Below, piece after piece: positions 14,703 through 16,521 of a DNA stretch of 64,000 bases. The DNA comes from Acidimicrobiaceae bacterium (GTDB lineage: Bacteria > Actinomycetota > Acidimicrobiia > Acidimicrobiales > Ilumatobacteraceae), in NCBI GenBank assembly GCA_012269985.1, contig JAAXJF010000098.1:1-64000 (forward strand). The letters run 5' to 3'. Under the pieces are notes generated by a model. It saw only the letters and a list, made by a program, of their open reading frames with translations, searched no databases and had not been told where the DNA came from. The position numbers were made by a program, and so were the translations under genes. Position 1 is the stretch's first letter. Each line of letters begins with the position of its first letter.

Positions 14703-15683
14703 TCAATCATGCGGTTGGATCGCTGCCGCAATCGAGCCAACGACGTCTGTGTCGACCATGTCACGAGCGACGCCGATCGCATTATTGATCGCCGTCGGCG
14801 ACGACGAACCATGCGAGATGATGCAGACACCATTGGTTCCGAGCAACATTGCGCCGCCGTAGGTCTCTGCCTCCAGCGATGTTTGCAGGGGAAGAATTTC
14901 AGGCAGCAGTGCAGCTGCGTGCTCGGCGAGTTCGGCATTTGCAGTCACCGCTTCGGTGAGCGCTGACATCACCTGGCGCATTGCTCCCTCAAGAGTCTTC
15001 AACACGACATTTCCGGTGAACCCGTCGGTCACCACAACGTCACACTCGTCAGACATGACATCTCGGCCTTCCACGTTGCCGATGAAATTGAACCCCGATG
15101 ATTCCTCTAACAGTCCAAATGCCTCTTTACGAAGTGAGTCACCCTTGCCGGCCTCTTCCCCGATTGACAACAACCCGACCTGCGGATTCGCAATTCCGAG
15201 TCGGTGTTCGGCGAAGATGCTGCCCATCTGAGCAAACTGCACGAGCCAGTCGGCTTGAACTTCGGAGTTCGCGCCAGCATCGAGGAGCACCGTCGGAGTG
15301 CCGCCGGGTACAGGAATCATCGCTGCGATCGCCGGTCGACCAACTCCCCGAATACGACCCATGCGAAGAAGCCCTGAGGCCATCGTGGCACCTGTATTCC
15401 CTGCGGACACCATTGCTGATGCAACACCGTCGCGCACTGCCTCAGCGGCGCGCACCAGGGTGGAATCTTTTTTGCGTCGGACCCCATGCGCCGGGTCTTC
15501 ATCCATTTCGATGACCTCGGAGGCCTCGATGAGCGGCAATGAGCCCGTATCTACCCTGGATGGAAGGTCGGCGGGGCCGACGAGTGCGACTGGGATACCT
15601 GATTCGGCGGCGAGGAGAGCCCCCGCGACAATCGCGTCGGGAGCGTGGTCGCCGCCCATTGCATCGACGGCAACCGGGAGCAT
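14703..15683 (-). CDS. plsX: Phosphate acyltransferase PlsX
   Basis: A 326-residue enzyme that converts acyl-ACP and phosphate to acyl-phosphate for phospholipid synthesis. It begins LPVAVDAMGGDHAPDAIVAGA, the PlsX hallmark, and contains the conserved VSAGNTGATMASGL segment and DVVVTDGFTGNVVLKTLEG. The gene follows rpmF by 13 nt in the classic rpmF-plsX order. TAGTCT ends 6 nt before the ATG, so plsX probably also has its own leaderless transcript besides read-through from rpmF. Confidence 0.96.
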   Translation of the reverse strand: MLPVAVDAMGGDHAPDAIVAGALLAAESGIPVALVGPADLPSRVDTGSLPLIEASEVIEMDEDPAHGVRRKKDSTLVRAAEAVRDGVASAMVSAGNTGATMASGLLRMGRIRGVGRPAIAAMIPVPGGTPTVLLDAGANSEVQADWLVQFAQMGSIFAEHRLGIANPQVGLLSIGEEAGKGDSLRKEAFGLLEESSGFNFIGNVEGRDVMSDECDVVVTDGFTGNVVLKTLEGAMRQVMSALTEAVTANAELAEHAAALLPEILPLQTSLEAETYGGAMLLGTNGVCIISHGSSSPTAINNAIGVARDMVDTDVVGSIAAAIQPHD

Positions 15684-15696: not shown

Positions 15697-15876
15697 TCAG
15701 GAGACGTCGACAACAACGCGATTCTTGTACCAGCCACACGACGGGCAAACCGTATGAGGTGTCTTTGCGCTGCCGCAGCGCGGGCATGTGCTGCGAGCTG
15801 GAGCTGACAGCTTCCAGTTGCTCGCACGACGGCTGCGGGTCTTCGACTTTGAGGTTTTCTTCTTCGGAACGGCCAC
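15697..15876 (-). CDS. rpmF: 50S ribosomal protein L32 (zinc-binding form)
   Basis: A 59-residue ribosomal protein starting with [22 protein letters not shown], then [10 protein letters not shown]. The C-terminal half has CPRC and CPSC, so this is the zinc-ribbon (C+) form of L32 rather than the cysteine-less zinc-independent paralog. GGAG lies 8 nt upstream of the GTG. Position directly before plsX is the standard bacterial arrangement. An overlapping frame at 15693-15896 is a shadow. Confidence 0.96.
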
Positions 15877-15972: not shown

Positions 15973-16521
15973 TTAGTCGTCGAGTTGCAGGTCGTCGAGT
16001 GCAGCCCATCGTTCATCTCGAACCGCGACCACGCATTCGCACGAGGCTTCGTTGCGATCAACGCCACATACGTCGCAGATCCCCTTGCAATCATCACTGC
16101 ACAGCACGCTCGTGGGCGTCTCGATCATCACCGTTTCTCGAATCGGTTCGACAAGGTCGATCTGGTCACCTTCAACAAGTGAAAGGTCACCATCGACAGA
16201 CGACAGCCGGTCTCGATCTCGGGCCGGCGCAAAACGTTCATCAAAATCGACGTTGCGGACTCCTGAAATCGCCTACAACCATCGCCGCCTCTCACCCCTC
16301 CACGGAATCGCTCCAAGGCCCGAGACTGCAACATCATCGGTGGCGGCAACGGCGGTGACCTCAACAACGACATTTCCTGCAATTTCAGATTGTCCGGGCG
16401 CCAACTGGCAGCCGAGATCTTCTGCCGAGATTTCGTGTTCGATGCTGCGCTCGCTGCCTGGGTGGCGCAGCAATTCCACCATGTTGATTCGAAGCGCCCG
16501 TGTCTGTGGCGATGACGTCAT
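15973..16521 (-). pseudogene. DUF177 (YceD-family) gene interrupted by an in-frame TAG
   Basis: The frame from the ATG at 16521 to the TAA at 15973 encodes a 182-residue DUF177 protein if one stop is ignored. DUF177 proteins are small conserved proteins, often encoded beside rpmF and linked to 23S rRNA accumulation. The TAG is codon 83 (16273-16275), in PWRGERRRWL-stop-AISG. Relatives have a C-x-x-C-L motif exactly there, so both cysteines have changed (to Arg and Trp) and the next residue is a stop. The downstream part is intact, with DERFAPARDRDR, CSDDC, ICDVCG and CEC. A sequencing error, a true nonsense mutation or a short 82-residue product are all possible. Confidence 0.75.

Follow-up and report, generated by a model that had tools for sequence, protein, structure and literature searches.

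Results

The DUF177/YceD locus and its neighbours

The stretch of DNA analysed here (the window) is the opening 64 kb of a contig 131 kb long in the draft genome (G000) of an Ilumatobacteraceae-like bacterium, with 2,149,434 bases, 103 contigs and an estimated completeness of 94%. Its named relatives are metagenome-assembled genomes of the Acidimicrobiaceae / Ilumatobacteraceae. The window contains a DUF177/YceD gene with the following features:

15973..16521, minus strand: DUF177/YceD gene, one frame with a single internal TAG (translation; Pfam PF02620; matches of relatives)
16275-16273, minus strand: the in-frame TAG, codon 83, where the three closest congeners encode lysine (translation, alignment)
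16275..16321, minus strand: block of ten substituted sites, 7 of them transversions (aligned by codon and by base with G015, G004 and G006)
16033..16101, minus strand: second cysteine cluster, intact (translation, alignment)
15697..15876, minus strand: rpmF, ribosomal protein L32, directly downstream of DUF177 (Pfam Ribosomal_L32p, 84.9 bits)
14703..15683, minus strand: plsX, a conserved neighbour, after rpmF (NCBIfam TIGR00182, 316.8 bits)

The DUF177 frame runs from 16521 to 15973, spans 183 codons and ends at a normal stop. With X placed at the internal stop codon, the translation matches Pfam YceD (PF02620) at 68.1 bits against a cut-off of 33.2, the match covering residues 90-178 only. 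At the first cysteine motif the assembled sequence reads R-R-R-W-L-stop, so that the C-x2-C pair is absent. PMC5049393 describes the two cysteine motifs of the family as a potential metal-binding structure. This description of the locus agrees with an earlier note on the same DNA, which had reported the RRRWL-stop reading beside an intact second cluster, and had described the gene as normally conserved next to rpmF. The earlier note had also proposed looking for a second DUF177/YceD gene elsewhere in the genome; a search of G000 found none.

Comparison with close relatives, also proposed in the earlier note, showed the motif to be intact in G015, G004 and G006. These three closest congeners share 90-93% DUF177 protein identity with the window and carry the motif GECRRCLK, and in all three DUF177, trpB and trpG are intact. 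More broadly, a YceD match was present in 57 of 60 relatives, none of which has a stop within the match, and in the 29 of these 57 loci that were aligned, C-R-R-C invariably stands where the window has R-R-R-W. Against G015, the window is collinear and ungapped over 25.4 kb at 96.1% DNA identity. Elsewhere among the relatives, the YceD gene of the one-contig genome G033 (L021:1501-2010) keeps the first CRRC, but little of its second cysteine cluster remains.

A cluster of private substitutions accounts for the damage

Relative to G015, G004 and G006, there is no indel anywhere in the DUF177 gene, which bears out the earlier description of the frame as free of indels. The TAG, the loss of both cysteines of the first cluster and two further amino-acid changes all arise from one block of 47 bases that contains substitutions only. 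The earlier note had rightly seen that the changes are clustered; its figure of six codons was too small, since the ten substituted sites extend over 16275-16321. Outside the block, the gene holds 7 further private sites, which are scattered, and matches its closest congener normally.

A second block of this type lies in the window:

1538-1591, in minus-strand ORF 1779-1156: 14 substitutions, 13 of them transversions, private to G000

This block alters several residues of the ORF and adds no stop; an NCBIfam profile search with the ORF gave no match. Private differences in the compared region number 324 in 21,344 sites, counted where G015, G004 and G006 agree. When these were placed uniformly at random in 2000 trials, no more than 7 fell within any 45 bases, whereas the best 45 bases hold 11 in block 1538-1591 and 8 in the DUF177 block; with the two blocks removed, the maximum is 4. 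The clustering of private substitutions in the two window blocks therefore exceeds chance. The blocks also differ in the kind of change. Differences from G015 and G004 outside them comprise 280 transitions and 126 transversions, compared with 3 and 6 in the DUF177 block (Fisher p 0.03) and 1 and 13 in block 1538-1591 (Fisher p 4e-6).

Several mutational sources for the blocks were considered and rejected. For short-range template switching, k-mers were taken from the block, each covering at least two substituted sites; the longest exact match within 1 kb was 9 bases, no better than at control positions. Copying of the block from elsewhere in the genome was discarded because only its own locus matched. 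Adenine-directed mutagenesis fails on the lack of a common target in the two window blocks, given that 7 of the 10 changed sites in the DUF177 block are A on the plus strand in G015, compared with 0 of 14 in block 1538-1591.

Similar blocks occur across the genome and break other genes

A wider scan drew on 604,744 of the 2,149,434 bases of G000, window included, and on 1.1 Mb of G015, of which 307,340 bases could be aligned between the two. By fixed criteria, which were set after the first patches had been seen, this 307 kb yielded 30 transversion-rich blocks; polarity was tested for a minority of the 30, and not all of them need be errors. For six of the 30, a contig end or N gap is no more than 150 bases away (binomial p 1.3e-6). 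Of all scan windows, 363 of 30,548 (1.2%) are equally near an end or gap, so only about 0.4 of the 30 blocks would be expected there. The strongest isolated blocks include those at the starts of contigs C8, C24 and C10 and at the end of C70, as well as one beside an N gap in C8. Among the 30 blocks, one touches a 10-N gap. The DUF177 block itself is inside the 131 kb contig, with neither an end nor a gap beside it.

In 12 blocks hand-picked by eye, A-C and G-T exchanges make up 80 of 119 transversions, compared with 2253 of 4330 elsewhere (p 0.001). The A/C and G/T pairs share detection channels. The excess of these exchanges is compatible with cross-talk in base calling. Cross-talk is reported in PMC4053729, with one run in which A and C were brighter.

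Two blocks outside the window also interrupt genes:

L060:6882-6954 (G000 contig C8): trpB block with an in-frame TAA, 11 private sites, 10 of them transversions
L147:441-479 (G000 contig C32): trpG/pabA block with an in-frame TAA, 8 private sites, all transversions

Both alter residues common to G015, G004 and G006. The gene identities were assigned by profile search, which found trpB in a sole copy in G000 and trpG/pabA in a sole copy over the cut-off. A general count of stops that break frames of at least 100 codons gave 206 in G000 and 205 in G015 (306 kb), of which 8 and 9, respectively, have six or more transversions nearby. Most of these stop-broken 100-codon frames look non-coding, so the count is weak and gives no help to a reading as sequence error. 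When ten frame-breaking cases were read by eye, the clear gene cores found broken in G000 were DUF177, trpB and trpG. In G015, no clear core was broken, the best case (L130:9343) lying in a C-terminal repeat-like tail. This sorting is a by-eye judgement, with profile confirmation for DUF177, trpB and trpG only.

Discussion

Our comparison suggests that the window very probably holds an ordinary DUF177 gene in which a 47-base patch of the assembly has the wrong bases, and that the living cell makes the usual protein. The damage is confined to a wrong-looking patch, and patches of this kind also interrupt other genes and are concentrated at contig ends and gaps, which argues that the gene is probably intact. 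In addition, because like blocks break DUF177, trpB and trpG, and because blocks occur at breaks in the assembly, error is the best explanation for all three. The earlier note had listed a local sequence error among its options, and this is the option that the evidence favours. We infer that the patches are errors, as well as the process behind them, from a patch that is private to G000 and absent from relatives, from similar patches elsewhere and from their excess at ends and gaps. The patch would most likely stem from a sequencing read whose low-quality end was built into the contig without correction. The organism itself would then most likely make a normal DUF177 protein that has its two cysteine clusters and acts with L32 in 23S rRNA accumulation.

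The main competing explanation is a genuine and very recent inactivation, in which a clustered burst of mutation (an error-prone polymerase could cause one) struck a lineage that tolerates the loss of DUF177. A block private to G000 in a gene whose remainder looks unrelaxed is the pattern expected of such an event. Moreover, according to PMC5049393, E. coli lacking yceD has less 23S rRNA and grows on rich medium like the wild type, and since yceD is dispensable there, a genuine loss of DUF177 could be tolerated here. However, like blocks also break trpB in its only copy and trpG/pabA in its only copy over the cut-off, and mutation within the cell would not explain why contig ends and gaps are enriched in blocks. 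We thus regard inactivation, which the earlier note had put forward, as unlikely and less probable than error, with some weight retained on account of the dispensable yceD. A lineage subject to real, transversion-rich mutation bursts of 40-75 bases, which had just inactivated DUF177, trpB and trpG together, appears more improbable still.

Two further readings carry virtually no weight. The earlier note had suggested a compensated pair of frameshifts, in which the reading frame would shift ahead of the motif and be restored after it, and had seen CRRF in the +1 frame. That CRRF is indeed present (ORF 16382-16128), but the alignment with G015, G004 and G006 is ungapped and their CRRC occupies codons 78-81 of the normal frame, whereas CRRF overlaps about codons 82-86, some four codons downstream of the true motif, and exists solely through the substituted bases. 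It is a by-product of the substitutions rather than a displaced motif, and the proposal is rejected as scarcely credible. Read-through or recoding of the TAG, to which the frame being open on both sides might point, is dismissed as having a negligible chance, given the lysine at this position in the three closest relatives, the loss of both motif cysteines as well, the use of TAA rather than TAG in the trpB and trpG blocks, and the termination of DUF177 itself by a stop at the usual place.

The case matters chiefly as a caution. In a draft of about 94% estimated completeness, a handful of patches with wrong bases can mimic the recent loss of conserved genes, and such patches could pass for auxotrophy (trpB, trpG) or for the loss of a ribosome-maturation factor.

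Compared with known DUF177/YceD genes, which encode the large ribosomal RNA subunit accumulation protein, the window's gene is alike in its C-terminal half and second cysteine cluster, as well as in lying immediately upstream of rpmF and plsX. It differs in that the first cysteine pair and a codon after it are disrupted, and this in the assembled sequence of G000 only. The failure of the first motif falls inside the suspected error block, and hence bears on the sequence and not on membership of the family. As for the uncorrected read-end and assembly errors of draft metagenome-type assemblies, the DUF177 block departs from them in lying inside a long contig, but the patches resemble them in being short, substitution-only, transversion-rich and enriched at contig ends and N gaps.
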